In this document: in pieces, positions 6,132 to 21,483 of the stretch | Position numbering within the stretch: the stretch's first letter is position 1 | Layout: every line of letters begins with the position of its first letter | Assembly (NCBI RefSeq): GCF_014651635.1 | Contig: NZ_BMXG01000005.1 | Span: 124,001-188,000 of the forward strand | From: Cerasicoccus arenae | GTDB taxonomy: Bacteria; Verrucomicrobiota; Verrucomicrobiia; Opitutales; Cerasicoccaceae | Direction: 5' to 3' | DNA length: 64,000 nt | Notes under the pieces: model-generated | What the model saw: only the letters and a program-made list of their open reading frames with translations | Told to the model about the DNA's origin: nothing | The model's database searches: none | Made by a program: the position numbers and the translations under genes

Positions 6132-6206
<75 letters not shown>

Positions 6207-6300
6207 TTTCCCTTGAATTTCAACGACTTACACATGCATTTTTGCTGAAATTTTGACTTTATACGCCTGATTTATACGGTGTTCATAAATTTTCAAAAAC

Positions 6301-6821
6301 ATGAGCACGCGCAACAAGGTCAAATGGCAGTTGGTCAAAACCGTCGAAAATCTGTATAAGAACGAGGAAAGCGGGCGATACTACGTTCGGCTCTACTACA
6401 GTCAAGGAGGAAAGTCGAAATCTACCTTTAGGAGTCTCAGGACGGGTCGCATCAGCGTGGCTAAGCAGAGAATACGCGATTATCTCAGTGACCATGAGGC
6501 GGGTAGGGCGAACCTGAACGCGGTGGCGAACTCTGAAACGACTTGGAGTGAGTTGTCCCGGGCATATATTACGAGCGTTGATAGTTCGACCGAACTGAAG
6601 CCGCGAACCAAGTCATCCCGATTGGTTGCCTTGAAGCGGGTTGAGAAATATTGGTCCGGGTTCCAAATCGAAGGCAAAACCGCTCTCGGCTAGTTCCATT
6701 AATAAGACCATCGATGCGCTATCTTTGTGTCTTTCCTACGGTGTAGAGGTTGGGCTTGGGCTTGTCGCGCGGAATGTAGCCAAGGGGCTTCCAAGGGCAC
6801 ATGTGCCGATTCAACGGTGGC
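6301..6821 (+). pseudogene. tyrosine-type site-specific integrase, frameshifted and truncated
   Basis: The first frame from ATG 6301 gives 130 aa resembling the arm-binding and core-binding N-terminus of phage-type integrases (YYVRLYYSQGGKSK near residue 28, then a helical SAM-like segment). The frame closes at 6693, but the homologous core-binding helix (SINKTIDALSLCLSYGVEVG) continues in a different frame from about 6695, so there is a frameshift near 6665-6695. The sequence ends abruptly at about 6821, where an IS3-family end begins. The whole catalytic domain (R-H-R-Y) is absent. The gene starts 94 bp from the 5' end of the tRNA. It is a relic of an integrative element rather than a functional recombinase. 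Confidence 0.72.
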
Positions 6822-7165
6822 TGAGTCCCCGTTTTTGGCCCACCGATTATGAGAAGATTCTGGTCGGGTTGTTTTTTACTGGTTTGGTTGGTTTTTTGAG
6901 GTTCTGGCGGAGGGAGTCCGTAGGACGACCGTAGCCAGGGCCTGTTGATGATTGTTTGGCAAATTGGGCAAGGCGTGAGCAATCCCAGAGATCGGTGTGG
7001 TCCTTCGTGATTATGCAGGTGGCGGTAATCATCGAAGATGACGCGTGATTCGCTTAAGGTTGAAGCTTTCGACGAAGCCGTTCTACCAAGGGCAGCAGGG
7101 ATTTGATATAGATGGTCTTGATGCGGTTGTCCTTCAACTCCATTCTGACAAGCGAGTTTGGAATG
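6822..7165 (-). pseudogene. IS3-family transposase OrfB C-terminus, copy 2 (degraded)
   Basis: On the minus strand, fragments of an IS3-type DDE transposase can be read in shifting frames: RIKTIYIK near 7110, then PW-stop-NGFVESFN (the third catalytic acid E of the DDE triad lies in FVESF; a CAG to TAG change gives the stop), then SRVIFDDYRHLHNHEGPHRSLG and the tail QNLKKPTKPVKNNPT. At least two frameshifts and one stop are present. The element end with TG at 6822-6823 matches the CA end of copy 1 in inverted orientation. Nothing recognisable of the OrfA or the left end is left between 7165 and 7362. Confidence 0.72.
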
Positions 7166-7362: not shown

Positions 7363-9183
7363 TCATCGAACGGATCGTAAATTTGAATCTTCGAGGCTGG
7401 CTTGTGTCGTTCTGGAACGCGGATGTAGCGGCGAGATCGATTGGAGCTCAATTTGATTTTCAGGGAGGGCTTGGTATTGCTTTTTGTATTGGCCTGGGGT
7501 CATTCCGACCAGTTTGCGGAAGACTTTGGCAAAATGCACGGGATCCGAAAACCCAGATTGCCCAGTTGCATCGCTAATATAAGAACCAGGGCGGCGCAGT
7601 ATCTCCATAGCCAGATCAATTCGAATCCGGCGAATATATTCGCTCAAGTTGCCCTCAGTATGTTGTTTAAAAGTTCGGCTGAGAAAGTCAGGGTGGCAGT
7701 TGAGATGGGCGGCTATTGTTTTAATGTTAAAGTTCTCGCCGACATTTTCTTCGATGTAGCGTAGGGTCTCCTTAATTACGTAAGGCATGGGTGCCTCGGT
7801 ATTGTTTTGGTATTTATTGAGGCTGGAGCCATTACTCGCTATAAGCTCTTTGTACCAGAATGCGGAGTCCTTAAGCTTTCGATTTTGATTTTGATAGTCG
7901 ACGTAGACAAGCCCGAACCGATGCTTGTAGCCTTCTTGCCACTCAAAATTATCCATGAATGACCAATGGAAATAACCGCGAATGTCCACTCCGTCATCCA
8001 GCGCTTTTTTCAGTGAGATGAGATATCCGATCAGAAAATCGATGCGATTGTTATCGTGAACCGAGCCATCTCGATTGACTTGGTCGCCGCTGGATAGCCC
8101 ATTTTCAGTAATAACAATTGGCAGCTTGTAATGTTCGTGGATGATTCTAGGTCCCCAGTAAAGTGATTCTGGCGCTTGGTGCCACTCATAAAGTGATAGT
8201 GGCTGTCCGGGGGCCTGTTCGGCAGCAACTGGGGTGCCTTCGGAACTCATCGTTACTGGCACGCCTTGAAATATATTGCAGCCAAAGAAATCAATTGGCT
8301 GTTTGATAATATCAAAATCGGAGTCTGGAACCTTAGGCGCTGCCTTGCCGTAAATTCTGAGACCATCCTCGGGGTAGCTGCCAAATACGACCGGATCCAC
8401 CCACCAGCTATTGTTCCAGATGGTGTCAGGAAAAATCGATTTGGCGGCTTTTTCGGCAGCTTTGATGTCGTCCAACTTATTAGTCGCTGGGCAAAAAACC
8501 GGTCCGGCGGGTGCCCAGCCGATATTGGGCTTACGCTTTGATTTTTCACGGATTACTGACACTGCTCTGCCATGGGAAAGGAGAACATTATGCCCTGCTA
8601 ACAAAATCTCACGTAAATCTAGTCTTAGTCCTGGCGCGTGCTCGCCAGTGTGATGCCCCAGTTCGAGGAAGCACTGCGGTTCATTGATAGTGATCCAGTG
8701 CTGCACGCGGTCAGATAAGCGATCGACTACTGCTGATGTATACTTGGCGAACCAAGTTGGTATATTCGGGTTCAACCAGCCTCCTCTCAGGAACAAGGCA
8801 TAAGGGAAATCCCAATGGAATAAGGTGACCCAAGGTTCAATTTGGTGCTCCAGTAGGGTATCAACCAATGAGTCGTAAAAGTCCAAGCCGGCTTGATTTA
8901 CCGTGCCTTCACCCTCTGGGATAATTCTCGGCCATGAAACTGAAAAGCGATAGGCATTGATTCCCATTTGGCTCATCAGCGCGACATCGTCACGATAACG
9001 ATTGTAATGGTCGCAGGCGATGCGACCATGTTGGTTTCGCCAAGCTTTTCCAGATTGATCTGTAAATTTATCCCATATGGAAGGGCCTTTGCCGTCCGCA
9101 TCCCAACTGCCTTCGATTTGATAGGATGACGTTGAAACTCCCCAGGCGAAGTTTTCTGGAAATGCCTTATTAGGAGTGTTCAT
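7363..9183 (-). CDS. GH1 beta-glucosidase fused to a C-terminal AraC-type DNA-binding domain
   Basis: One uninterrupted 606-aa frame. Residues 8-455 form a complete GH1 (beta/alpha)8 barrel: N-terminal FAWGVSTSSYQIEG, acid/base Glu168 in TINEP, nucleophile Glu360 in ITENG, and the C-terminal YFHWSFMDNFEW. There is no signal peptide. After a linker of about 20 residues, residues about 467-572 form a two-helix-turn-helix AraC/XylS domain: IKTIAAHLNCHPDFLSRTFK and then GFSDPVHFAKVFRK with the closing GMTPGQYKK. The partner GH1 at 15428 ends just after its barrel, so the HTH is an addition. The enzyme would release glucose from beta-gluco-oligosaccharides in the cytoplasm; the fusion suggests that substrate occupancy could control DNA binding. 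That regulatory role is inferred. A palindrome lies upstream of the start. Confidence 0.93.
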   Translation of the reverse strand: MNTPNKAFPENFAWGVSTSSYQIEGSWDADGKGPSIWDKFTDQSGKAWRNQHGRIACDHYNRYRDDVALMSQMGINAYRFSVSWPRIIPEGEGTVNQAGLDFYDSLVDTLLEHQIEPWVTLFHWDFPYALFLRGGWLNPNIPTWFAKYTSAVVDRLSDRVQHWITINEPQCFLELGHHTGEHAPGLRLDLREILLAGHNVLLSHGRAVSVIREKSKRKPNIGWAPAGPVFCPATNKLDDIKAAEKAAKSIFPDTIWNNSWWVDPVVFGSYPEDGLRIYGKAAPKVPDSDFDIIKQPIDFFGCNIFQGVPVTMSSEGTPVAAEQAPGQPLSLYEWHQAPESLYWGPRIIHEHYKLPIVITENGLSSGDQVNRDGSVHDNNRIDFLIGYLISLKKALDDGVDIRGYFHWSFMDNFEWQEGYKHRFGLVYVDYQNQNRKLKDSAFWYKELIASNGSSLNKYQNNTEAPMPYVIKETLRYIEENVGENFNIKTIAAHLNCHPDFLSRTFKQHTEGNLSEYIRRIRIDLAMEILRRPGSYISDATGQSGFSDPVHFAKVFRKLVGMTPGQYKKQYQALPENQIELQSISPLHPRSRTTQASLEDSNLRSVR

Positions 9184-9281: not shown

Positions 9282-9634
9282 GGCTGAGGTCTATTCCAAT
9301 TCGAGCGGGTGAGGATTGCGAGTGTCAATGCCTGCTTGAATTTGACGCACTCCCAATTTTCATGTCAGAGATAGACCCTCGAATTCTCATTTGTGGACTT
9401 GCTGCAATCGCCCGTGATGCTCGATGGGGTAAGGAGGCTGGGAAAGAAAGGCGGCGATGGGCGATTGCCGCTGTGGCTATATTGCATTGGTCGGTTATCG
9501 TCTGTGATTTGGTCGGAAACCGACTAACGGATGAGGCCATTTATAGTATATAGTGTGTTCAAGTCTCCACAGGTTTGTCTCATTTCGTTAATGCCGATAA
9601 ATTGCATCCAACTCATAACAACCCACTTAAATCG

Positions 9635-11611
9635 ATGTACGTCCCATCTTTGAAAACAAACACACACCGCTATGTTATACTGACACTTTTTGCGCTGATT
9701 AACTTGCATGCAAGTGAACCAACGCAGACAGCTGTTCTGTTTGACATGTCGAGCGCTGAAGCAATCAATTCATCGGAAACGGAGAACGGTGCCAGTGTGT
9801 CAATCGAGGATGGAGCGCTCAAGGTTTCTTTCGATAAAAGTAGCAGCTATCCAGGGGTAAACCTTAGGCCTGCTGGTGGCGCTTGGAACCTGTCTGAGTA
9901 TGGCGGAGTCGAAATGACATTTGTCAACAATGGCCCCGAAAAATATGGAATTGGTCTTAGGCTGGATAACCCCGGCAACTGGAAAAACAACCCTTGGAAC
10001 ACTGAAGTCGCATGGGTCGAATCTGGGCAGGCCAAGACCATTCGAGTTACTTTTGGACAATCATACGGTAACAAAGGTTACGCCTTGAATCCGTCGCAAG
10101 TGAACAATATCAAAATTTTGGTGGATAGGCCTAGGCAGGCGGGTAGCATCTCCGTGCAATCATTAAGAGCGATTGGTGAGCCGGTCACCTATGAGAAAGC
10201 CGCTGCGCAGCCTGATCAGCCGGTTAAAGCAAAGCAATTGAAGCCGAGCTTTAATTCGCCTTCAATTTCAGGAGAACTGATCGACTTGAGCAAGAAGGGA
10301 AGCTTGTCCGATTATCGGACGAGTAATTCCAGTATCAAGATTGTAGAGGACGATTCCAGCTATGCGTTGGAAATGGATTTCGGAAAGGGCCGTGGATATC
10401 CGAATGTACAATTCCCCATTCCTGATGGCGGTTGGAACCTTGAGCACTTTGCCGGTTTGCAAATTGTCCTAAAAAACAATGGTGATCACAAAGTGAGAAT
10501 TGGTGTAAGGACGGACAACCCAGGCAATTGGAAAGAATCGCCTTGGAATACCGACATGCATCACATTGGACCCGGAGAGACCAAAACAATCCAAACCGTC
10601 TTTGGCCAAGAAAACGGCGCACCATCCTACCCGCTTAATCCAGTCAATATCAGCGGTATTCAGGTGTTTGCCGATAATCCAAGCAAGGCGGGGTCAATTC
10701 AGATCATGGATCTCCGTGGCTATGGAACGGCCGAACAGCGCGAAGCTAAGGAAGCTCTTTCCACGCCCGAGGACCGAAATGTCCCGGCCAAACTGCCATC
10801 TTGGATCGGCAAACGCCCCCCAGTGGAAGGTGACTGGGTGATGACCCTCAATGAGAATTTCGATGAAAAGAAATTGAATCTTTCACTCTGGACACCTCGG
10901 CTTTGTTGGGACGGCCCGGCTAAGGGTGAGACTCAGCGATATCTAGAGGAAAATGTCACCGTACAAGACGGGTTCATGAAAATCCTCTGCGAGGTTAACC
11001 CCGGGCACCAATACAATGATCCGAAACTCGATAGTCGCGTATACGCAACAGGCGCGGTCACAACGTTGGACAAATGGACACAGCGTTACGGCTATTTTGA
11101 AGCTCGCTTGAAGCCGCCAACCGCACGGGGACTCTGGCCAGCATTCTGGCTGATGCCGGATCGTGGCAAGGACAGCGGATTAGATATCTGGCAGCGCCGT
11201 GACACTGGTGCGAAGAATGGTAAGGGCATGGAAATTGATATCTTCGAACATCTCACTGAATGGGGCGGAGGACGCTATAACATCGCCACTCACTGGGATG
11301 GATATGGATCTGATCATAAGCAATGGGGTAGCTCTCATACTTATTATGGACCAACCGAAGACGGTTTTCACACGGCTGGACTCCTTTGGGAACCAGGCAA
11401 ATTGACATGGTATCTCGATGGGGAGAAAAAAGGAGAATGGGAAAATGAGCGTATTGCTGATGTGCCCGCCTACATCAAATTCACCATACAGATGGGCAGT
11501 TGGGCGACTAAGAACGTGGATGACGCAGCCTTGCCGCAATATTTTGAAATCGACTACGTGCGGGCTTGGCAACTGAAGGAGCACCAATCGTTAGCAGAGT
11601 CCCGAAAATGA
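9635..11611 (+). CDS. secreted GH16 endo-beta-glucanase (laminarinase-like) with two accessory domains
   Basis: From the ATG at 9635 the protein has 658 aa and a signal peptide of about 24 residues (HRYVILTLFALINLHAS). Two homologous beta-sandwich domains follow (about 30-195 and 205-365), each with a DNPGNWK...PWNT core and a GxTKTI...FG motif; they resemble the CBM-like modules found at the N-terminus of some agarases. The GH16 catalytic domain covers about 390-650, with EIDIFE at 533-538 (nucleophile Glu533, Asp535, acid/base Glu538). The ExDxxE form with a beta-bulge is that of laminarinases, agarases and kappa-carrageenases, not lichenases. The GH1 and GH5 neighbours favour a beta-glucan substrate. 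The in-frame start at 9575 was rejected because it buries the signal peptide. Confidence 0.88.
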   Translation: MYVPSLKTNTHRYVILTLFALINLHASEPTQTAVLFDMSSAEAINSSETENGASVSIEDGALKVSFDKSSSYPGVNLRPAGGAWNLSEYGGVEMTFVNNGPEKYGIGLRLDNPGNWKNNPWNTEVAWVESGQAKTIRVTFGQSYGNKGYALNPSQVNNIKILVDRPRQAGSISVQSLRAIGEPVTYEKAAAQPDQPVKAKQLKPSFNSPSISGELIDLSKKGSLSDYRTSNSSIKIVEDDSSYALEMDFGKGRGYPNVQFPIPDGGWNLEHFAGLQIVLKNNGDHKVRIGVRTDNPGNWKESPWNTDMHHIGPGETKTIQTVFGQENGAPSYPLNPVNISGIQVFADNPSKAGSIQIMDLRGYGTAEQREAKEALSTPEDRNVPAKLPSWIGKRPPVEGDWVMTLNENFDEKKLNLSLWTPRLCWDGPAKGETQRYLEENVTVQDGFMKILCEVNPGHQYNDPKLDSRVYATGAVTTLDKWTQRYGYFEARLKPPTARGLWPAFWLMPDRGKDSGLDIWQRRDTGAKNGKGMEIDIFEHLTEWGGGRYNIATHWDGYGSDHKQWGSSHTYYGPTEDGFHTAGLLWEPGKLTWYLDGEKKGEWENERIADVPAYIKFTIQMGSWATKNVDDAALPQYFEIDYVRAWQLKEHQSLAESRK

Positions 11612-12681
11612 GAATGAATGAAGTGCCGCACGGCCGAGCAACACGTCTACGCCGCGGCATCAATCTTAGCCATTGGTTTTCGCAAGTTTACACCGATGAC
11701 GGTTATTGCGCTGAACATTTCGACAGTTACATCCAAGAGCCAGATATTGAATTGGTTCGCACGTTAGGATTCGACCATGTTCGTTTCCCCGTTGCGTGCG
11801 AACCAATGTTGGCGAATGGGAGTACCGGGCAAATTAGCGAAGTAAAAATGGCCCGCTTGAAGAAGGCAGTCGAATTACTCCTCGAGCATGAGCTTTGCGT
11901 AATACTAGACATTCACCCCGAGACGCCTTTTAAAGAACGTTTAGCCTTGGATGACGCCTCAGTAGCTGCATTTACTGAGTTCTGGAGAGTGCTAGCAACT
12001 CGCATGAGTGATTTCGATCCGGAGCGCCTATTCCTTGAAGTGCTCAATGAACCTTGCATATGTAATCCTTCGCGTTGGTCTTGGATTCAAAACCAGTGCG
12101 TTGCGGCGATACGAGAGGCTGCGCCGGAGCATACTATTATTGTATCGGGCGATGAATGGTCGCAACTCCCGCAGCTACTGTTGATCGAAATGCCTGAGGA
12201 CGACAATGTGATTGCTAATTTCCACATGTACGAGCCTTCATCGTTCACGCATCAAGGTGCCAAGTGGGGTAGCCCTTGGATGTGTGAAACGAAAGGCTTA
12301 GCTTACCCCTCTAGGGGCTCCAACGCGAAAGTCCTGCTTGGTTCGGTCGAAAATGATGAAGCGCGTAGGCAACTGGACGAATATATTGAGCTGGACTGGG
12401 ATCACGCTGCCTACCGTCGCTATATTGCTCCGGCAGAGCGTTTCCGCTTGGAAAACAATGTTCCAGTCATGTGCAACGAATTTGGCGTATACAAAAAATA
12501 CGCTCCGCGGGCATCTCGTTTACGGTGGACGAAGGATGTGATCTCTGCATTCGAATCGGCGGACATTGCGTGGACTATGTGGGATTACGCTGGCGATTTT
12601 TCAATTGTGAAAACGGATTATGGGAACAGGACCCCGGACCTGGAGTTGCTAAGGTGCATGGGGCTTTTATTGGAACAATAA
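11608..12681 (+). CDS. GH5-family (cellulase-fold) glycoside hydrolase
   Basis: A 357-aa protein with a (beta/alpha)8 barrel: RRGINLSHWF at the N-terminus, DHVRFPV on strand 2, acid/base Glu148 in LNEP, and nucleophile Glu291 in CNEFG, followed by TMWDYAGDF. The chosen ATG overlaps the stop of the preceding GH16 gene (ATGA, 4 bp), which indicates translational coupling; an upstream in-frame start at 11566 would overlap more. There is no signal peptide, so the protein probably acts in the cytoplasm on imported beta-gluco-oligosaccharides, although the upstream partner is secreted. GH5 covers many beta-1,4 and beta-1,3 specificities and the subfamily is not assigned here. Confidence 0.87.
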   Translation: MRMNEVPHGRATRLRRGINLSHWFSQVYTDDGYCAEHFDSYIQEPDIELVRTLGFDHVRFPVACEPMLANGSTGQISEVKMARLKKAVELLLEHELCVILDIHPETPFKERLALDDASVAAFTEFWRVLATRMSDFDPERLFLEVLNEPCICNPSRWSWIQNQCVAAIREAAPEHTIIVSGDEWSQLPQLLLIEMPEDDNVIANFHMYEPSSFTHQGAKWGSPWMCETKGLAYPSRGSNAKVLLGSVENDEARRQLDEYIELDWDHAAYRRYIAPAERFRLENNVPVMCNEFGVYKKYAPRASRLRWTKDVISAFESADIAWTMWDYAGDFSIVKTDYGNRTPDLELLRCMGLLLEQ

Positions 12682-12956: not shown

Positions 12957-14924
12957 TTAAGATTGGTCCGGTTCGGTTCGCCCTGCGAGAGTGGGCTGAG
13001 TAGACTGTACGCCATCGACCTCAGAGGCCAAGTCTGCGCGCTGCCAAACACGCACATAGTCGATAACAAAATCGCATGGAAGTTGCGCATCGTCTATGCC
13101 ATTATTATCCCAACCACCGGAAACGTGGGTGAACATCATGTCCGATTCGACACTAGAAATACGAGGTGACTCCCAACGGGCCACGACCTCCCCATTTGCA
13201 TAAAATACCGCTTCACCCGGTGTCCAAAGCAAGCCAGCTGTGATGTATCCCTCGGCATCTGGCTCGAAGTAAATCGTGGTCGACCCAGTTTGCTGGTGGT
13301 CCTTGCCATATCCGTTCCAGTGCATTGCAATATTGTAGCGATAGACGCCCCATCCCGATAGAAACTCCATGATATCAAACTCCATTCCTTTATTTCCACT
13401 ATCTTGGCGTTTCCACTGAGGGCCAGCATCAAGGCCGCGATCAGGCATGAGCCAAAAGGCAGGCCAAAGTCCAGGTGCCTCCGGTAGCTTCATACGGGCT
13501 TCGAAATATCCGTAACGCTGCACCCACTTGCCATAGGTATCGATAAAACCAGTGGCGTAATCGGTCACCTTGCCTTCAGGACTATCGGCGTGCGGCCCCT
13601 TCTTTTTCTCAAAGCGGAGTCGGCAAACTCCATCGCCAACGATCACGTTATCTTTACTGAAATGACTACGCTTGTCCCAGTAATTTGGAGTGTAGACGTT
13701 CCATCGGGTGAGGTCGATTTCATTGCCATCAAATTCTTCATTGAATGTCACAGTCCAATCGCCTTCTACGGGCGGACGCTTGCCAATCCATTCGGGCAGG
13801 GCCTTTGTTGGTGCGCCGGCGATAATTGATTCAATCCGCATGCTCTGGGCTTCGCCAGAAGGGTCAGCTAGTATGGCGATCGATCCTACCGCATTGCTGA
13901 CAAATCGTGTGCCCGTACCCTTCTCTGACTGCCAGCTCGTCTTCACCGAACCTTTGATGCCTGTCCAAGGAACTTCAGGGATAAATGACACAACAATGTT
14001 GCCCTCTCCACCTGGCGGAATTGGTCCGGAAGAAAAAACATCGGTGCCGCCCGGTTGACTGAGTGCGCGCGCCCGTGGAGAAACTGGACTCGTGCCAGTG
14101 TTTTTGATGCGTATGGCGACAGCGACTGACTGTCTCAGATCCCATTTACCGATAATCGGATTGATAGAAATCTTTCGGCCCTTACCCTTGGTGAAATTGA
14201 CGTCCAGTGCAGAGCCATCGTTTACCAGTGTGGCCTCAGCTCCATCCGTTGCAACAATTTGGGCGGGCAGTAATTTAACCTCAGCCCCAAGAATCACACC
14301 TTTTGGCGGTGCCGTGCGGACCGAAGCAGGGTTAACCGGCGGTGTTTCTCCCGCCGGGCCAGCAGCCTTGATCGAAACGATGCGAAACTGCTTTTCCGCC
14401 TTAGATGTCTTTCCGGTAAAAAATAGCAACTGCGACACTTTAGAAGGATCCAGCTTGTAACCAGGCTTGAGACCATAACTGTGGCCGAAGATGACCTTAA
14501 GGGTTTTTGTCTCGCCGGGTTTCACTGTCGTTGACTCTGTGTTCCAAGGATTATCCTGCCAGTTGCCAGAATTATCTACTCGCAAAGAAAGGGGCAGTTT
14601 AGTTTCCCCGGTATTTTCTATTTCGGCTTCGATATGGCCGAAATCCGATAAATCCCAAGGCGACCCGTCAGTCGACGTGATCCCAAGTCCGGGATATCCT
14701 TCTGGTCCCATTGCTATAATCACATCGATTTCGGAAGCAGAAGAATGAGGATTTCGTTCAAAAGTAACCTGGCTGCTGCTCGGCTTCATGGAGCCAATGT
14801 CCAAAACGCGTTCGGTGGATTCATTCGCTTGCAGAGGGATAATTGACGCCAAGGAAAGCAATGTCCCCAACGTGAATGTGGAAAAAGTGAAATTTCCGGG
14901 TAAGTAACGATTTGAGATTAACAT
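12957..14924 (-). CDS. secreted GH16 endo-beta-glucanase, second copy
   Basis: A 655-aa protein with a signal peptide ending near residue 33 (PLQA-NES). Residues about 40-190 form one beta-sandwich accessory domain of the same type as in the other GH16 gene (DNSGNWQDNPWNT), and residues about 215-365 a second, more divergent one. The catalytic domain from about residue 375 starts with the same WIGKRPPVEGDW linker as its paralogue and carries EFDIME at 515-520 (nucleophile Glu515, acid/base Glu520). The two GH16 proteins are clearly duplicates that diverged. This copy is on the opposite strand and divergent from the second GH1 gene. Laminarin or a related beta-1,3-glucan is the likely substrate; an algal galactan is the alternative. 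Confidence 0.87.
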   Translation of the reverse strand: MLISNRYLPGNFTFSTFTLGTLLSLASIIPLQANESTERVLDIGSMKPSSSQVTFERNPHSSASEIDVIIAMGPEGYPGLGITSTDGSPWDLSDFGHIEAEIENTGETKLPLSLRVDNSGNWQDNPWNTESTTVKPGETKTLKVIFGHSYGLKPGYKLDPSKVSQLLFFTGKTSKAEKQFRIVSIKAAGPAGETPPVNPASVRTAPPKGVILGAEVKLLPAQIVATDGAEATLVNDGSALDVNFTKGKGRKISINPIIGKWDLRQSVAVAIRIKNTGTSPVSPRARALSQPGGTDVFSSGPIPPGGEGNIVVSFIPEVPWTGIKGSVKTSWQSEKGTGTRFVSNAVGSIAILADPSGEAQSMRIESIIAGAPTKALPEWIGKRPPVEGDWTVTFNEEFDGNEIDLTRWNVYTPNYWDKRSHFSKDNVIVGDGVCRLRFEKKKGPHADSPEGKVTDYATGFIDTYGKWVQRYGYFEARMKLPEAPGLWPAFWLMPDRGLDAGPQWKRQDSGNKGMEFDIMEFLSGWGVYRYNIAMHWNGYGKDHQQTGSTTIYFEPDAEGYITAGLLWTPGEAVFYANGEVVARWESPRISSVESDMMFTHVSGGWDNNGIDDAQLPCDFVIDYVRVWQRADLASEVDGVQSTQPTLAGRTEPDQS

Positions 14925-15427
14925 TTGAAGTCTATTCTATCACGTTAGAAAATAATAACACTGGCGGGGTCCGACTAAAGGCCTGTCATTTTCTGATCAA
15001 GAACAAGGCTTAGTTTAGCCAATTTTCCCTACTAATGTCTAGATGAAAGCCTTATTTGGGCAATGAGTTGCATTTGCCCCGAGAATGGGTAAATACTAAA
15101 GGTCAGCAGCCTAATTGTAACGCATAGAGTCAATTGCAGACCGGCCACCGCCTAACTTTGAAATGAACAATTGGATGCAGTGATTTTCTTTTCTCAGCCT
15201 GTAGCGCAGAGAAGTTTAGCATGGTTGGTAAAGTCATGCTCGTGGTTGGCTTATATCGGTTCTGGGTATTGTTTCTGGATCGGCCACCTTGGATCAGGAA
15301 AAGACTGGACTCCAGTCGGTGGGCGACTAACGCGTCTGCTTGATATGTGTTATATTACTATCCACAGTCCTTAATGCCCCCCCCTGTTCGGGAAATATTA
15401 GCAAGCAAGCATGCCTTTAACAATCCG
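14925..15427. other. 503-bp divergent intergenic region between GH16 and GH1
   Basis: This region separates two divergently transcribed CAZyme genes and must hold both promoters. An interrupted inverted repeat GGGCAA (15058-15063) / TTGCCC (15074-15079) and an 8-C run (15377-15384) are the only structures I see. No convincing small gene and no copy of the 9261-9281 palindrome was found. Confidence 0.5.
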
Positions 15428-16876
15428 ATGCCAATAAAACACGATAATCAAAGCATAACTAAATTTCCTTCGCACTTCACATGGGGCGCTGCAGCAGCAG
15501 CATACCAAATAGAAGGCGCTTGGGATTCCGACGGAAAGGGGCAATCCGTCTGGGATGCCTTCACCAAAAAAAAGGGAGCGGTTTGGGAAGGTCACAGTGG
15601 TAATGTTGCGTGTGATCATTACAATCGTTATGCAGAAGATATTGAGTTAATGGAGCTGATTGGTCTTCAGGCCTATCGCTTATCGGTGTCCTGGCCTCGT
15701 GTCATGCCTGAGGGCGTGGGGAAGGTAAATCCACGGGGTATTGAATTTTATGACCGCTTAGTCGATCGCCTACTCGAATCAAATATCGAGCCTTGGGTGA
15801 CTCTTTTTCATTGGGATTATCCACATGAATTAGACCTCAAAGGAGGTTGGTTGAATCCTGATAGCCCTAAGTGGTTTGCTGATTACACCAAAGTTGTGGT
15901 CGAGTGTTTGTCTGATCGTGTTTCCAATTGGATCACCCTGAATGAGCCTCAATGCTTTATTGGGCTAGGGCATCTGGTTGGCGAGCATGCGCCGGGAATG
16001 AAGCTCAGTCTTCAGAAGGTGCTACAGGCAGGCCATAATGCATTGCTCGCCCATGGCCTTGCTGTTCAAGCCATTCGGACAAACACCAAGCAACCGGCTA
16101 GCATCGGTTGGGCTCCTGTAGGTGCCGTACATTATCCGCATACTGATTCGAAGGAAGATTGTGCAGCAGCAATGGCGGGTATGCATGCTGTGTATGGAGA
16201 CAACGTCTGGAATAACCGTTGGTGGGGCGATCCTGTTGTTCATGGCTTCTATCCTGAGGAAGGATTGCGCGCCTATGGCGCTTCAGCGCCCAAAGTTAAA
16301 TCGGGCGATTTTGACATCATCAAACAACCAATCGATTTCTACGGTTGCAATATTTACTCCGGAGTTCCAACGAAGGCAGGCAGTAATGGTAAGCCCGAGG
16401 TGGTAACCTTACCGGCTGGATCGCCGCATACACATTTCCTCTGGAATAGAACGCCCGAAGCATTATATTGGGGAACGAAGTTCCTCGCTGAACATTATAA
16501 GCTTCCTGTTGTGGTGACGGAAAATGGTCTGTCCTGTAATGACTGGGTGACTCTCGATGGGCAGGTGCCGGATGCCCAGCGGATAGATTTCCTTCGACGC
16601 TACCTTCTTTGCTTGGAAAAAGCCATCGATGAAGGTGTGGACGTTCGTGGTTACTTTCATTGGTCGATTATGGATAATTTTGAATGGGCGGAAGGATACA
16701 AACATCGGTTTGGACTGATCCACGTTGATTATGAAACCCAGAAGCGCACACTGAAAGATTCTGCCTACTGGTACCGAGGAGTCATTCGGTCGAATGGAGC
16801 TAGCCTTGGCCATTTTTCAACTGCTGATTCTACCTCCGCAGATTATGAAGAAAAAACCGCCGCACTATATTCCTAA
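15428..16876 (+). CDS. GH1 beta-glucosidase (stand-alone paralogue)
   Basis: From ATG 15428 the protein has 482 aa, a full GH1 barrel without signal peptide. Acid/base Glu173 lies in TLNEP and nucleophile Glu365 in VTENG; the N-terminal AYQIEG and the FHWSIMDNFEW aglycone-site segment are intact. It aligns along the whole barrel with the GH1 part of the AraC fusion at 7363-9183, including the unusual CDHYNRY, FGCNI/YGCNI and AYG/IYG stretches, but ends about 25 residues after the barrel without any HTH. Upstream in-frame starts (15347, 15374) are less likely because they add a non-conserved extension. It probably hydrolyses beta-glucosides or laminari-oligosaccharides to glucose in the cytoplasm. 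Confidence 0.92.
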   Translation: MPIKHDNQSITKFPSHFTWGAAAAAYQIEGAWDSDGKGQSVWDAFTKKKGAVWEGHSGNVACDHYNRYAEDIELMELIGLQAYRLSVSWPRVMPEGVGKVNPRGIEFYDRLVDRLLESNIEPWVTLFHWDYPHELDLKGGWLNPDSPKWFADYTKVVVECLSDRVSNWITLNEPQCFIGLGHLVGEHAPGMKLSLQKVLQAGHNALLAHGLAVQAIRTNTKQPASIGWAPVGAVHYPHTDSKEDCAAAMAGMHAVYGDNVWNNRWWGDPVVHGFYPEEGLRAYGASAPKVKSGDFDIIKQPIDFYGCNIYSGVPTKAGSNGKPEVVTLPAGSPHTHFLWNRTPEALYWGTKFLAEHYKLPVVVTENGLSCNDWVTLDGQVPDAQRIDFLRRYLLCLEKAIDEGVDVRGYFHWSIMDNFEWAEGYKHRFGLIHVDYETQKRTLKDSAYWYRGVIRSNGASLGHFSTADSTSADYEEKTAALYS

Positions 16877-17035
16877 ACCCCACGGATTATTTGCCGATGA
16901 TGAGATGAAAACCACGCGACCAATTGCAAGAATGCCTCCGATTAAAAGATGAAATATAACAACAGGATCGGAAACATAATTAGTCGTCGATCCATCTACC
17001 CCGATTAGCTCATCAATAAAAACACTCAGTTGCTA

Positions 17036-20000
17036 ATGAATACCCCAAGACAGAAGAGCGAGTGCCGTAAGCGCCAGGGGTTCGCTCTGGTTCTCAGCCT
17101 CAGTCTGATGTCATTTCTGGTGCTGCTCATTTTGTCTTTAGCGATTCTGACCAAGCTGGAAATTCAGTCGTCGGCAAACATGATGCAGCGCAATCAGGCT
17201 CGCCAGAATGCGCTTACCGCTCTCAATATTGCGCTTGGTGAGTTGCAGAAATACGCGGGGCCAGATCAACGCATAACCGCACGCGCGGATTTGCAGCATG
17301 GTGACACATCCGCCAATCCGTATTGGACTGGAGTGTATGGTAATTCGATTGCAGCCAGTTACACGACAACGCCGGAGCAAATCGCAACCGACCTCACTGA
17401 CGCCAATAAAGTCGACTCCCAAGGATCGTCGGCCCGGTTGCTAAGTTGGTTGGTTAGCGGTAATGAAATGGTTCCGTTTAATCCAACCACAGATATCGGC
17501 ACCTCCGGTGAAATTATCAATGCGCCTGATGCATCCAGTATTCCCTTCAACCCGGTCACAGTCGTAAGCAATCTGAACGATAGCACGGCAATTACTGCGA
17601 CAGATCTAGTCATTCAAGATGTTAATGGAAGTCCTCGGGCGGCGCGTATATTGGTTGGGGACGGTGTAACTGCTGATTCCAGTGATTTTGTGGCGGTCCC
17701 TTTAGTTGATCTTGAAAACAATACGGGTGCGAAAGTGGGTGGCTATGCGTGGTGGATCGGCGACGAAGGTGTCAAAGCTCGCGCCAACTTACCCTTGGTT
17801 ACTGAAAGCAATAAAAAGCTGAACGCGTTCGTTAGCGCTTCCCGTACCGCAGTTGAATTGATGTCGGATGGCGGCGAAGATGACGATTCTCTGGTTGGTG
17901 ATCGGATTGATGTAGCCTACAATCCCGAGGATGCCCGTTTGGAACGCATTGAACAACTTGAAGAACTGCCATTAGTATCCCTTGAGCCCGTTGACTTTTC
18001 GACGAAGCTGAAGTATCGTTTTCACGATCTGACGACCCGTTCGCAGTCCGTAATTGTCGATACTTACGCTGGTGGTTTGAAACGAGATCTATCCATCATT
18101 CTCGACGAGTCCTTCATTCCTGCTGTAGATGATCCCACTGCAGATGTGAATCGACTTTGGGTTCCACATACTGGAGATACCTTGGGTTTTACGCCAGGTT
18201 TTGCGATTCCAACATGGAGACATTTGCGTTCATTTGCGCAAACGAGGGTTCCGACGACAGGCACCGATGCGTTTAAGATGGAACCAATTCTTCCGGCTCA
18301 TGATAAAGCGGATAATGGAGGGGAAACATTTCCAGACCATGTGGGCATTGCTCCGGTTATAACATATTTTTCGATGGGGTTCCGAGCTGCTTACAACAAT
18401 CCCATTGAGGTGGAAGGGATTGAACCGGAGATACACTTGAATCTTTACCCCCTCGTAGTCATCTGGAATCCGTATAACTTTACGCTAAAACCTCCACCCG
18501 ATTCAGAGGGATATTACGAAGTCGGAATTTATCCGACTTACAATGTGAAACTCGATCTTGAGGCTTTTGTAGCGAGGGATTCGGCGGTGCCGGAATGGAC
18601 AAATATCACTTCATTTGATTTTCAAAGGGATACTGATGGTGATCGGACTAAGACGGAGTTTATCCGTTTTCGATTAAAATGCCCAGAGGATGGAATTCCC
18701 CCGGGACAGAGCTTGATTTTTTCTCTGCCTGATGATTCTACCGCCCTTTATGATCAGAAGAATGTTCTTTATAACAAAGACCCCTTGGATGGGTATGTGT
18801 CTGTTCCATTCACTCCTACTGGTTCTAAAACACCCATAAAAGCTCTATCGGAAGAGGTATTTGCGGATTACAGGTTAGTGAATAACTACGAGAGATCCTA
18901 TGATGCGGATGGAAATGTTACTCATGAATCTAACCGAGGGTCTAGCTTCAGTAATAATGGAGGTGGCGCGATGTACATCTATATTGGTGAGCCGGTCGAG
19001 CAACCCATTTACGTTGGATGGCCGTCTCCTGACGGGCACATTGTGCATAACCCTTCTTGGGGGCCTCGTCGTTGGTATAACACCCATCAACAAATTGGAT
19101 GGGATAATAACAAGGTAAAAGTTCTAGACGAAGCATCGCATCAGCAAGAGCCAGGGCAGCTACAATACAAACCGCCCTTGGATGATGCCTACGTTTTCCT
19201 GACTCAGGCCCTCTTTTCTGGGCAAGGGCAGAATGCCCAGCTCGATACTGATCAGTTCATGTTCACCACACGTTGGCTTGCCCAAGGCAATATGCGGGCG
19301 GTTCGCTCCGGCAGAACTCGTAGGGATGGGAACTTCAATGTGTTATACACTGCAACGACCGGTAACGTTAAAACGCCATGGCAAAAATTCAGCAATGGCA
19401 GTGGCTCAGAAGAACACCGGACTTCGGCTGGAAATGGCCACGATTGGATAGCCAATGAGCCGGTTGATGCGATTTTGTATGAGTTCCCTTACGAGGATCA
19501 GCCAATATTTTCGATTGGCCAGCTCCAGCACGCAAATCTTTCTTTGGTTGGGGCTTATCCGTCATACCCAATTGGCAATAGCTTGGCAGATTTTCGTTTG
19601 AATGAGAAATCGTCTACTCCAATTGGCTATCAACTAGCTCGCATTGATGCGACTAATCAGGGTGGGATTAATCAATTACGTAATGATCAACGAGGCTACT
19701 ATGATATATCCTTCCTCTTGAACCGCACGCTTTGGGATCAATATTATTTTTCGACAGTACCCGCAACGGGTGATGTTCCTGACACACTCCCGAATACACG
19801 CTATGTAGAATACAATGATAGCGTTGATCTTCAGGATCCTGATAAGTCTGCTGCTGGATTAATGCTGAATGGCGGGTTCAATATCAACTCAACTTCAGAG
19901 CAGGCTTGGCGCGCCGTTCTTGGCGCTACGAATCAACTGAAGTATGATCCAGAAGATGCGTTAGGCGGGAATCCCTTGAATTCCGCTTTCTCTCGCTTTT

Positions 20001-20773
20001 CTCGGCCAAACTCGGACGATGATCTCGGGAGTGACACAAGTGACGCCATGCATAAAGCATGGGATGGTTACCGCACATTGACGGAAGAGGAAATCGCTCA
20101 ATTGGCTCGGAATATTGTGGTGGAGATTCGCAACCGGGGACCATTCGTTTCTCTCTCTGACTTCATCAATCGCCGACTCGTTGATAATCCAAACACGAAC
20201 GATGCGACTGTTGGCAATACCGCCCATGAGCATGAAGATTTTAGGGGCACCATTCAAGCTGCCATTGATCGGACGGCTACGCATAGTGACGACGATGGAA
20301 ATGATGCATTTCCCTCCAACGATGGTACGGGCTTATTCTGGCAGGCTGACGAGATGGCAACCAGAGGGGACTCGACGAATTACAACCACAATCAAGGCAC
20401 TCAATACGCCTATTACAATCAGGCACGACTGGAGGGAGCTGATGTGCCGGCACGACCATATAGCAACCGCTCTTCGTTTGCTCCCAAATACATTAGTCAG
20501 GCGGATATCCTTGCGACTATTGGTTCGACCCTTTCTGCTCGTTCAGACACCTTTGTCATTCGGGCCTATGGCGAAGTAGTTGATCCGTTTAATCCCGCCG
20601 AAGTTCGTTCGCAAGCATGGTGTGAGGCGGTGGTCCAGCGCTATCCCGAATACATCAACGATACAGTGAATGCTCCGGAGGACAATCCGTCCAAACTCGA
20701 TGCGTTAAACAAGCAGTTTGGCCGAAAATTTAAGATACTTTCATTCCGATGGCTCTCCGCAGACGAAGTTTAA
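17036..20773 (+). CDS. Verru_Chthon cassette protein A-like, prepilin-type envelope protein
   Basis: A 1245-aa protein with a short basic leader and a single N-terminal hydrophobic segment, GFALVLSLSLMSFLVLLILS, followed by an amphipathic region (ARQNALTALNIALGELQKYAGPDQRITA) typical of the Verru_Chthon cassette protein A family known from Verrucomicrobia. The large remainder is predicted extracellular, Asp/Asn/Tyr rich and with no catalytic signature I recognise. The ATG at 17036 is preferred to a TTG two codons earlier. In the described cassette, protein A is followed by B, C and D prepilin-like proteins; here it overlaps by 25 bp with an unrelated secreted protein and no B-D genes are seen. 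It may belong to a pseudopilus-like or K-component-like system, which is an inference. Confidence 0.8.
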   Translation: MNTPRQKSECRKRQGFALVLSLSLMSFLVLLILSLAILTKLEIQSSANMMQRNQARQNALTALNIALGELQKYAGPDQRITARADLQHGDTSANPYWTGVYGNSIAASYTTTPEQIATDLTDANKVDSQGSSARLLSWLVSGNEMVPFNPTTDIGTSGEIINAPDASSIPFNPVTVVSNLNDSTAITATDLVIQDVNGSPRAARILVGDGVTADSSDFVAVPLVDLENNTGAKVGGYAWWIGDEGVKARANLPLVTESNKKLNAFVSASRTAVELMSDGGEDDDSLVGDRIDVAYNPEDARLERIEQLEELPLVSLEPVDFSTKLKYRFHDLTTRSQSVIVDTYAGGLKRDLSIILDESFIPAVDDPTADVNRLWVPHTGDTLGFTPGFAIPTWRHLRSFAQTRVPTTGTDAFKMEPILPAHDKADNGGETFPDHVGIAPVITYFSMGFRAAYNNPIEVEGIEPEIHLNLYPLVVIWNPYNFTLKPPPDSEGYYEVGIYPTYNVKLDLEAFVARDSAVPEWTNITSFDFQRDTDGDRTKTEFIRFRLKCPEDGIPPGQSLIFSLPDDSTALYDQKNVLYNKDPLDGYVSVPFTPTGSKTPIKALSEEVFADYRLVNNYERSYDADGNVTHESNRGSSFSNNGGGAMYIYIGEPVEQPIYVGWPSPDGHIVHNPSWGPRRWYNTHQQIGWDNNKVKVLDEASHQQEPGQLQYKPPLDDAYVFLTQALFSGQGQNAQLDTDQFMFTTRWLAQGNMRAVRSGRTRRDGNFNVLYTATTGNVKTPWQKFSNGSGSEEHRTSAGNGHDWIANEPVDAILYEFPYEDQPIFSIGQLQHANLSLVGAYPSYPIGNSLADFRLNEKSSTPIGYQLARIDATNQGGINQLRNDQRGYYDISFLLNRTLWDQYYFSTVPATGDVPDTLPNTRYVEYNDSVDLQDPDKSAAGLMLNGGFNINSTSEQAWRAVLGATNQLKYDPEDALGGNPLNSAFSRFSRPNSDDDLGSDTSDAMHKAWDGYRTLTEEEIAQLARNIVVEIRNRGPFVSLSDFINRRLVDNPNTNDATVGNTAHEHEDFRGTIQAAIDRTATHSDDDGNDAFPSNDGTGLFWQADEMATRGDSTNYNHNQGTQYAYYNQARLEGADVPARPYSNRSSFAPKYISQADILATIGSTLSARSDTFVIRAYGEVVDPFNPAEVRSQAWCEAVVQRYPEYINDTVNAPEDNPSKLDALNKQFGRKFKILSFRWLSADEV

Positions 20774-21483
20774 TTTTTCTCAGCATATTACTCTCTTTTT
20801 CGGGTATTTTGAACGGACAATCGCGTAGAGAAGAGGCGCCGATTGCCGAATTCAGGGTCATTGCCATGTCTGACTTGGCGACGCTCTTTTATGATGTTGA
20901 TGGTAAGAAGGAAGTGATTCACGCGGGACTGGGGGCTTTTTCTCGACTGTATCCGTCGCCGAGTAACCGAAGAGTGGTGTTTTATCGAGAAGACCCGAAC
21001 CCTGACCCAAGAAAGCCACCGATCAAAGCCACCGTTGCAGATGCAACTTTGCCAAGTGGAGAGGGCCCTTATCTCGTGCTGTTGATTAGTAATCCATCAC
21101 CTGAGGGGTTTCCATTCAGTACGCTCGTGATTGATCACTCGTTGAAGGTACATCCAGCCAACAACTATCGAGTTTTTAATTTCTCAAAGCGCCGCATGGC
21201 GGTACGACTGGCGGAAAAAGATATGCTTCTAAATCGTGGCGAGTCAGAGACTGTTCCTTATCCCGATGCGCGTAAGGCTTGGCTGAAGGTGGCCGCTGAT
21301 GAAGAAGGGAGCTGGTTGGTCGTTACCAGTTCCTCGCATTCGGTAGGCTCTGATTCAAGGACGACCGTCTTTATCGTTGATATTCCACCATCAGAACGTG
21401 ACCCCGATCCCAAGGGAGTTGTCGCGAGAAGAATGCGTGAGCGCATCGTAACGGATGAATTTGGAGAACAGCACGTTAAATAG
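20749..21483 (+). CDS. secreted protein of unknown function linked to the Verru_Chthon A gene
   Basis: A 244-aa protein with a signal peptide (SLIFLSILLSFSGILNG). The mature part is mainly beta-strand with a Pro/Asp-rich loop (REDPNPDPRKPP) and a basic C-terminus (VVARRMRERI). I do not recognise a family. Its ATG lies inside the last codons of the upstream gene (25-bp overlap), so the two are almost surely cotranscribed and functionally linked, for example as a periplasmic assembly partner or anchor. No enzyme motif is visible. Confidence 0.75.
   Translation: MALRRRSLIFLSILLSFSGILNGQSRREEAPIAEFRVIAMSDLATLFYDVDGKKEVIHAGLGAFSRLYPSPSNRRVVFYREDPNPDPRKPPIKATVADATLPSGEGPYLVLLISNPSPEGFPFSTLVIDHSLKVHPANNYRVFNFSKRRMAVRLAEKDMLLNRGESETVPYPDARKAWLKVAADEEGSWLVVTSSSHSVGSDSRTTVFIVDIPPSERDPDPKGVVARRMRERIVTDEFGEQHVK

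Follow-up and report, generated by a model that had tools for sequence, protein, structure and literature searches.

In the 64,000-nucleotide stretch of the Cerasicoccus arenae contig NZ_BMXG01000005.1 analyzed herein as a whole (the window), a minus-strand open reading frame (ORF) at 7363-9183 was found to encode a 606-residue protein, in which a complete glycoside hydrolase family 1 (GH1) domain is followed by an AraC-type DNA-binding domain with two helix-turn-helix (HTH) motifs. The frame begins with ATG and contains no internal stop codon. We describe this GH1-AraC fusion, its relatives, and the genes that it probably regulates, beginning with the fusion and its two parts:

7363..9183, minus strand: GH1-AraC fusion protein, 606 aa (ORF; Pfam; 18 further fusions)
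7828..9168, minus strand: GH1 domain (residues 6-452), the proposed ligand-sensing part (Pfam; Foldseek to Ks5A7)
7468..7785, minus strand: AraC-type DNA-binding domain (residues 467-572, two HTH motifs) (Pfam HTH_18 and HTH_AraC; helices of the AlphaFold2 model)

A Pfam search assigned residues 6-452 to Glyco_hydro_1 over profile positions 3-452 of 453 (493.6 bits, E = 5.7e-148) and residues 490-569 to HTH_18 over the whole profile (positions 1-80 of 80; 64.8 bits, E = 8.7e-18), the latter being overlapped by an HTH_AraC match of 44 bits; beyond these GH1 and HTH matches, Pfam gave no family at E-values up to 1. The AlphaFold2 model, built from a 27-row alignment, had a mean predicted local distance difference test score (pLDDT) of 87.9 and a predicted template modeling score of 0.75, with both domains confidently predicted and the last 31 residues below a pLDDT of 50. 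The first AraC-domain helix of this model starts at residue 468, past a linker that follows the end of the Glyco_hydro_1 match at 452, and the helices spanning 468-570 together with the full HTH_18 match revealed the C-terminal two-HTH domain of about 100 residues that characterizes the AraC/XylS family. The single open frame carrying both domains, as claimed in a preliminary description of this DNA, was thus confirmed. The best Foldseek match of the fusion was the GH1 β-glucosidase Ks5A7 (TM-score 0.97 by target length), and its score against the NCBIfam equivalog model for GH1 β-glucosidases, TIGR03356 (518.5 bits), exceeded the cut-off of 478.5, so that automatic annotation would label this regulator as a β-glucosidase. 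No obvious signal sequence was seen by eye at the N-terminus (MNTPNKAFPENFAWG), and the fusion should thus be located in the same cytoplasm as the plain GH1 enzyme.

The genome of the window contains seven GH1 genes, three of which code for fusions ending in a domain of this kind. A junction query of 171 columns, aligned over the GH1 tail and the AraC domain, gave matches spanning the entire junction in 6 of the 10 family genomes, in 5 of the 387 genomes sampled from the phylum, and in 11 of the 372 order genomes. In total, 19 distinct fusions, including that of the window, were identified in 11 genomes of one verrucomicrobial order, G001 and G003 belonging to the genus of the window. A stop between the two parts, one of the findings that the preliminary description had named as overturning it, was reported inside none of the 19 fusion matches of the 11 genomes; an assembly error or frameshift as the origin of the fusion was ruled out by the 19 distinct open fusions with the same junction. 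The spread of the architecture, which the same description had proposed to examine, was delimited to the above order among the genomes searched. In a further 44 genomes carrying GH1 loci (3 verrucomicrobial, the rest largely from other taxa), the junction query gave matches in all 44 but none comparable to the fusions: the strongest covered either a GH1 tail or an AraC domain by itself, a few weak matches to the AraC domain extended into the tail, and the one over columns 16-167 reached an E-value of 7.1e-17, compared with 4.1e-79 or better for the fusions; this sample is small and covers other phyla thinly, and fusions may occur there. The AraC domain is followed by a short C-terminal tail with a motif like K-N-P-R within the final 16 residues (L113:8301-10085 being an example): N-P-R was observed in 12 of the 19 tails and the looser D-P-R, D-T-P-R, Q-P-R or D-T-R in 6, and the window fusion has H-P-R about 20 residues before its C-terminal end.

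The relationship of the fusions to plain GH1 proteins was assessed with a quick maximum-likelihood tree of 59 of the 110 GH1 domains (19 fusions, 30 plain domains from near genomes or relatives, and 10 random ones), with branch support from the Shimodaira-Hasegawa-like approximate likelihood ratio test (SH-aLRT) and no bootstrap. All 19 fusions formed a single clade (SH-aLRT 99), the sister group of which (support 93) consisted of 13 plain GH1s of fusion-bearing genomes, including that encoded at 15347-16876 of the window, and the two groups were jointly supported at 99. A plain GH1 gene was found in the surroundings (20 kb for most loci) of 12 of the 19 fusion loci, and was arranged head to head with the fusion gene in six of them (L114, L124, L125, L126, L129, and L130). 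The tree and the neighborhoods read as a duplication, a fusion and a division of labor, the direction of which we infer.

The two catalytic Glu residues assigned in the preliminary description were both present in the window protein, Glu168 within NEP and Glu360 within TENG, and the following codons were examined across the family:

8680..8682, minus strand: codon of Glu168 (acid/base), kept in 19 of 19 fusions
8104..8106, minus strand: codon of Glu360 (nucleophile), Glu in 18 of 19 fusions and Gln in L029
8269..8271, minus strand: codon of Phe305, in the place of the nucleophile-orienting GH1 Tyr of the N-x-Y motif (site table)

All 91 plain GH1s have Tyr at position 305, where 17 of the 19 fusions have Phe and the other 2 have Ser. 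This was the only completely switched position, positions 17 and 387 differing as well in most fusions but incompletely. The plain set of 91 leaves out the second frame of L004, which is a truncated fusion copy. Its members were partly chosen by GH1-tail patterns (most of the 79 loci from that scan are plain GH1s), and the residues around W407, N412, and E414 are therefore conserved in it partly by construction; position 305 lies outside these patterns. As the last residue of N-x-Y, position 305 matches N294/Y296 of HoBGLA and N282/Y284 of the Thermus β-glycosidase, a correspondence drawn from motif spacing. In HoBGLA, replacement of the Tyr (Y296F) was reported to leave a kcat of 8.5 per s on cellobiose, compared with 387 before (a 45-fold drop), and to raise the Km from 10 to 20 mM (PMC4803828), and the corresponding replacement in TmBglA (Y295F) lowered the kcat on p-nitrophenyl glucoside (pNPG) 85-fold (PMC9113129). 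In a quantum mechanics/molecular mechanics study (PMC6467970), the Tyr is stated to hydrogen-bond the nucleophile, and a study is cited in which it matters more for deglycosylation; the authors were themselves unable to reproduce the effect of the Tyr-to-Phe change.

Further losses at positions conserved in the plain GH1s were E360Q in L029, W407S together with E414D in L031, and N361C in L030; position 414 is also Ser in one plain GH1 (L075). F423Y was found in 6 of the 19 fusions versus 1 of the 91 plain GH1s, and the equivalent substitution by motif in HoBGLA, F417Y, lowered the kcat tenfold and the Km threefold (PMC4803828). Meanwhile, Q22, R79, H123, W124, N167, E168, N303, and W415 were kept in all 19 fusions. 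The argument of the preliminary description that an intact Glu pair marks an undegraded enzyme was thus not supported, since the Tyr is lost in 19 of 19 fusions, the nucleophile in one, and subsite residues are changed in another. As an additional observation, the plain GH1 gene L147 (G097:C98:6840-8183) contains one TGA inside its match, and both fusions of the same genome carry active-site lesions.

The ratio of nonsynonymous to synonymous substitution rates (dN/dS) of the GH1 domain was 0.022-0.084 in six of seven fusion pairs (0.063 in the pair with L029), values that are rough because dS exceeded 1 or was unmeasurable in five of the seven pairs, including that of the window. This purifying selection ruled out decay of the GH1 part. 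For the linker plus the AraC part, dN/dS was 0.04-0.24 in the five of seven pairs that were measurable, and among the three fusions of the genome of the window, HTH1 was the best conserved of six stretches compared (72-81% identity). These data point to the GH1 domain as a ligand binder with weak or no turnover: a domain under selection, with its sugar pocket kept and its catalysis probably lowered, is what a sensor would look like.

The fusion gene is accompanied by the following genes, several of which are recurrent among the fusion loci:

9575..11611, plus strand: GH16 enzyme, probable target (Pfam; 17 of the 19 fusion loci have GH16 cluster C1)
11566..12681, plus strand: GH5 enzyme, possibly in one operon with the GH16 gene (Pfam; 3 of the 19 fusion loci have cluster C9)
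12957..14924, minus strand: second GH16 enzyme, probable target (Pfam)
15347..16876, plus strand: plain GH1 enzyme with the catalytic Tyr, in the sister clade of the fusions (Pfam; tree; site table)
17030..20773, plus strand: large 1247-aa protein of cluster C2 with a weak GspK-like N-terminus (NCBIfam, 21 bits, below the family cut-off; 18 of 19 fusion loci)
20749..21483, plus strand: 244-aa partner of the 1247-aa protein, assigned to cluster C3 (present at 15 of the 19 fusion loci)

The GH16 and GH5 proteins of the window suggest β-glucan, laminarin being a guess, as are laminari-oligosaccharides as the ligand of the fusion. Some fusion loci also hold GH5, GH39, GH94, GH16 with CBM96, sulfatases, and PEP-CTERM proteins, and a LacI-type regulator (cluster C6) lies near 4 of the 19.

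To describe the upstream regions of the conserved genes, expectation maximization was applied to 54 of them and yielded a 42-bp motif with a log-likelihood of 405, versus 110-152 for four shuffled sets, which were run with fewer random starts. This predicted operator consists of two direct half-sites, RTCRGcAAatgACA and RTCRGca..cGaCTaaC, at a spacing of 22 bp, and most sites adjoin a -10 box, as do the operators of the AraC/XylS family, whose direct half-sites lie about two helical turns apart. The sites predicted in the window were as follows:

9490..9531, plus strand: predicted operator facing the GH16 gene (genome-out model 14.6, best of the window; genus-out model 8.6, second)
9549..9554, plus strand: predicted -10 box TATAGT, 17 bp past the operator (hexamer scan)
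15293..15334, plus strand: predicted operator facing the plain GH1 gene (genome-out 13.1, second; genus-out 11.8, best)
15351..15356, plus strand: predicted -10 box TATATT (hexamer scan)
14956..14997, minus strand: weaker predicted operator, directed at the second GH16 gene (genome-out 11.2, third)
14934..14939, minus strand: predicted -10 box TAGAAT, 16 bp past the operator (hexamer scan)

The genome-out model was trained from random seeds with the three loci of the same genome excluded. The above operators were its top three places in the 64-kb window (maximum of 9.7 in 15 shuffled windows), and all three lie upstream of glycosidase genes and are oriented toward them, in line with the earlier proposal that the fusion controls the local glycosidase locus. 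The -10 box at 15351..15356 implies that the true start of the plain GH1 gene is downstream of the GTG at 15347. In total, 55 sites scored above 10.4 and every one of the 19 fusion loci has one, 16 of these 19 loci having been in the training set. A TATAAT-like hexamer (score at least 3 of 4.9), which is not part of the model, was found 16 or 17 bp past the operator at 51 of the 55 sites, and at 8 of the 8 sites of the genome of the window, which were not in the training set. Counts at other offset pairs were 1-13 of 55, apart from 28 and 29 at the two pairs that overlap with this one, and the mean of the upstream control was 3.7 of 55; an extended -10 TG was present at 37 of the 55. The fixed orientation and distance of the -10 box place the operator where a -35 box would be expected. 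Such an operator at the -35 place before a -10 box is the class II site layout of AraC-type activators, and this geometry suggests that the direction of the predicted regulation is activation.

A genus-out model was trained on non-coding pieces from other genera with the GH1 starts cut off; training on uncut regions was discarded since it captured the conserved GH1 coding start rather than promoters. Its best score was 10.0-29.2 in all 10 loci of the genus of the window, with maxima of 5.3 in 20 background stretches and 4.7 in 14 comparator regions. Of these comparators, all without a linked fusion, 13 surround homologs of the large neighbor, including three from fusion-bearing genomes, and the remaining one surrounds a plain GH1. 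With the genome-out model, they contained no site above 10.4 and two above 7.5 (8.7 and 8.5), and 399,180 bases of stretches from the genome of the window (about a tenth of it) contained none above 10.4 and one above 7.5 (8.8). The operator accompanies the fusions in the comparisons made.

Predicted operators also lie upstream of the C2 and C3 genes in several loci. The products of these genes, of about 1250 and about 240 residues, respectively, across the fusion loci, possibly belong to a surface apparatus that resembles a pilus or a secretion system and takes up glucan. Among 273 genomes of the order that were searched, all relatives listed at E = 0 came from fusion-bearing genomes; two relatives of 42-44% identity are present in G438, for which no fusion was reported. 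Other predicted operators, at L115:5101, L119:17750, L120:13851, and L121:12898, face genes of clusters C12, C7, and C15, sampled members of which carry PEP-CTERM motifs (weak matches), so that the regulon may include surface-sorted proteins. Next to a fusion, at L129:948-3260, a predicted operator precedes the gene for a protein of 770 aa that contains passenger-associated transport repeats. On the other side of the window fusion, a tRNA-Met gene at 6132-6206 (minus strand) adjoins two short overlapping frames at 6301-6934 (plus strand), which by eye resemble pieces of a tyrosine recombinase and gave no Pfam match; the 6132-6934 area is a possible remnant of an integrated element beside the fusion locus.

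Taken together, the fusion is likely a one-component transcription activator with a crippled β-glucosidase as its sensor: it is probably no longer mainly an enzyme, and instead senses sugars and switches on genes for sugar digestion. The fusion, its conservation, its single clade, the residue losses, the purifying selection, the operator and its phasing with the -10 box, and the linkage of the operator to fusions were computed directly, and from them we infer the binding of the fusion to the predicted operator, a β-glucan oligosaccharide as the ligand, dimerization, and activation. In the scheme that we propose, a gene for a cytoplasmic β-glucosidase would have been duplicated, one copy remaining an enzyme and the other acquiring an AraC DNA-binding domain to become a one-component activator. 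The GH1 barrel would have kept its sugar pocket, with catalysis blunted by the change of Tyr305 to Phe and by further lesions in some members, and we propose that because turnover is slow a bound oligosaccharide lasts long enough to serve as a signal. Oligosaccharides released by the secreted GH16 enzyme would enter the cell and bind in the GH1 pocket of the fusion, the sugar-bound dimer of which would sit on the two direct half-sites 22 bp apart, replacing the -35 box at 16-17 bp before the -10 box, and would recruit RNA polymerase to the GH16, GH1, and linked surface-protein genes; the plain GH1 enzyme would finally remove the inducer. The interpretation of the preliminary description was thus partly supported: the GH1 domain as the sensor of a one-component regulator is consistent with the conserved fusion, its linkage to GH16 and GH1 genes, and the AraC-like operator predicted before those genes, while the undegraded enzyme is the part that was not upheld.

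Several observations weigh against this sensor-activator. Both catalytic Glu residues are retained in 18 of the 19 fusions, and engineered Tyr-to-Phe GH1 enzymes keep about 1-2% of kcat (PMC4803828; PMC9113129). Y305F was probably one ancestral event, so that the 19 fusions do not represent 19 independent losses, and F297Y of a Gongronella enzyme is given as the corresponding position (PMC9113129), which would suggest that a natural GH1 has Phe there. As to the operator, the site at 14956-14997 scores only 1.5 with the genus-out model and is not above background, 8 of the 55 predicted sites lie inside a called frame (some of these frames, not necessarily all, may be over-long, as they were drawn from the first possible start), and several predicted operators face non-glycosidase genes, which implies a regulon broader than one sugar pathway. 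The retained Glu pair and the residual kcat, together with the invariance of Q22, R79, H123, W124, N167, N303, and W415 and the strong purifying selection on the GH1 domain, would also be expected of a true bifunctional enzyme-regulator, whose GH1 domain hydrolyzes at a useful rate and in which turnover is part of the signal, the switch being reset once the substrate has been cleared. We regard this as possible but improbable, given that the Tyr is gone in every fusion, that the nucleophile is gone in L029 and Trp407 and Glu414 are altered in L031, and that a plain GH1 is already at hand in the surroundings of 12 of the 19 loci. Somewhat more doubtful is a self-timing sensor, in which the Tyr-to-Phe change chiefly slows sugar release from the glycosyl-enzyme, the covalently glycosylated protein would be the inducing state, and its slow hydrolysis would act as an off-clock; members without the nucleophile (L029) would then have moved on to plain non-covalent sensing.

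The operator might instead belong to a regulator encoded elsewhere, with the fusion merely sharing the locus. Another, unlinked AraC protein could bind it, since other AraC proteins occur in these genomes, and the LacI-type regulator near four loci is a further candidate; yet all 19 loci share the fusion (the criterion by which they were assembled), none of the 14 comparator regions yielded a site, even the three in fusion-bearing genomes, and a direct-repeat geometry suits an AraC-type dimer, all of which render this explanation unlikely. It is likewise quite unlikely that the fusion is a repressor: an operator adjoining the -10 box could block the polymerase, but the constant 16-17 bp to the -10 box in 51 of 55 sites, the TG in 37 of 55, and the position of the operator in place of the -35 box constitute a layout of activator-dependent promoters, such as AraC class II sites. 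That the AraC domain merely places an ordinary β-glucosidase on DNA, or is a passive passenger of no regulatory meaning, would agree with the score of the fusion above the β-glucosidase cut-off of NCBIfam; this is extremely improbable in view of the conservation of HTH1 above all other stretches compared, the low dN/dS of the linker plus the AraC part, and the specific predicted operator that accompanies the fusions.

If the sensor-activator is correct, the enzyme and the sensor standing side by side in one clade would illustrate how an enzyme may become a sensor, by a route comprising one signature residue change, a kept binding pocket, a new DNA-binding domain, and a decoded candidate operator. 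How far catalysis must drop for sensing could be addressed by residue-by-residue comparison of the sister enzymes with the fusions. The family would also offer a ready-made sugar-biosensor architecture with a predicted promoter, as well as a candidate code by which glucan-type loci of Verrucomicrobia are regulated.

A GH1-derived sensor is an unusual construction for a bacterial sugar sensor. With GH1 β-glucosidases (TIGR03356; Ks5A7 and T. maritima BglA), the fusion shares the whole fold and nearly all active-site residues, and differs from them in the absence of the conserved Tyr and the presence of a DNA-binding domain. With the AraC/XylS activators AraC, MelR, RhaS, and PocR, it shares the C-terminal two-HTH domain and a predicted direct-repeat operator just upstream of the -10 box, whereas a complete GH1 barrel takes the place of the sensor, be it cupin-like, PocR or another type, that such activators usually carry; this agrees with the earlier remark that the architecture is unusual. 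Two stand-alone AraC proteins of the relatives that matched the AraC part carry a PocR sensor (L015) and a weak cupin-like match (L023). An enzyme fold acts as a ligand sensor on a DNA-binding domain in PutA, BirA, GabR/MocR, and ROK repressors, and we know of none among these that puts a glycoside hydrolase on an AraC domain. In the hybrid two-component systems of Bacteroides, an AraC output domain controls polysaccharide loci, but through a membrane sensor kinase and a phosphorelay rather than through a soluble glycosidase-derived sensor. Cupin-AraC-GH39 proteins occur in Firmicutes, for which we found no paper, and no report on glycosidase-AraC fusions was recognized from titles and the beginnings of abstracts in a literature mostly outside subscription journals. 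By analogy, the nearest functional precedent found is the anti-sigma-I6 factor RsgI6 of Clostridium thermocellum, the sensor of which is a GH10 domain that retains carbohydrate binding at a very low catalytic activity (PMC4711584). Both would use a weakened glycoside hydrolase domain as the sensor for a regulator of glycosidase genes, the weakening of the fusion being read from its residue pattern; RsgI6, however, has an extracytoplasmic GH10 domain on an anti-sigma factor, and the fusion has a GH1 domain directly on an AraC domain, with no match to the RsgI N-terminal domain in Pfam at E-values up to 1. The fusion is thus made of known parts in a new combination, with an unusually complete anatomy.

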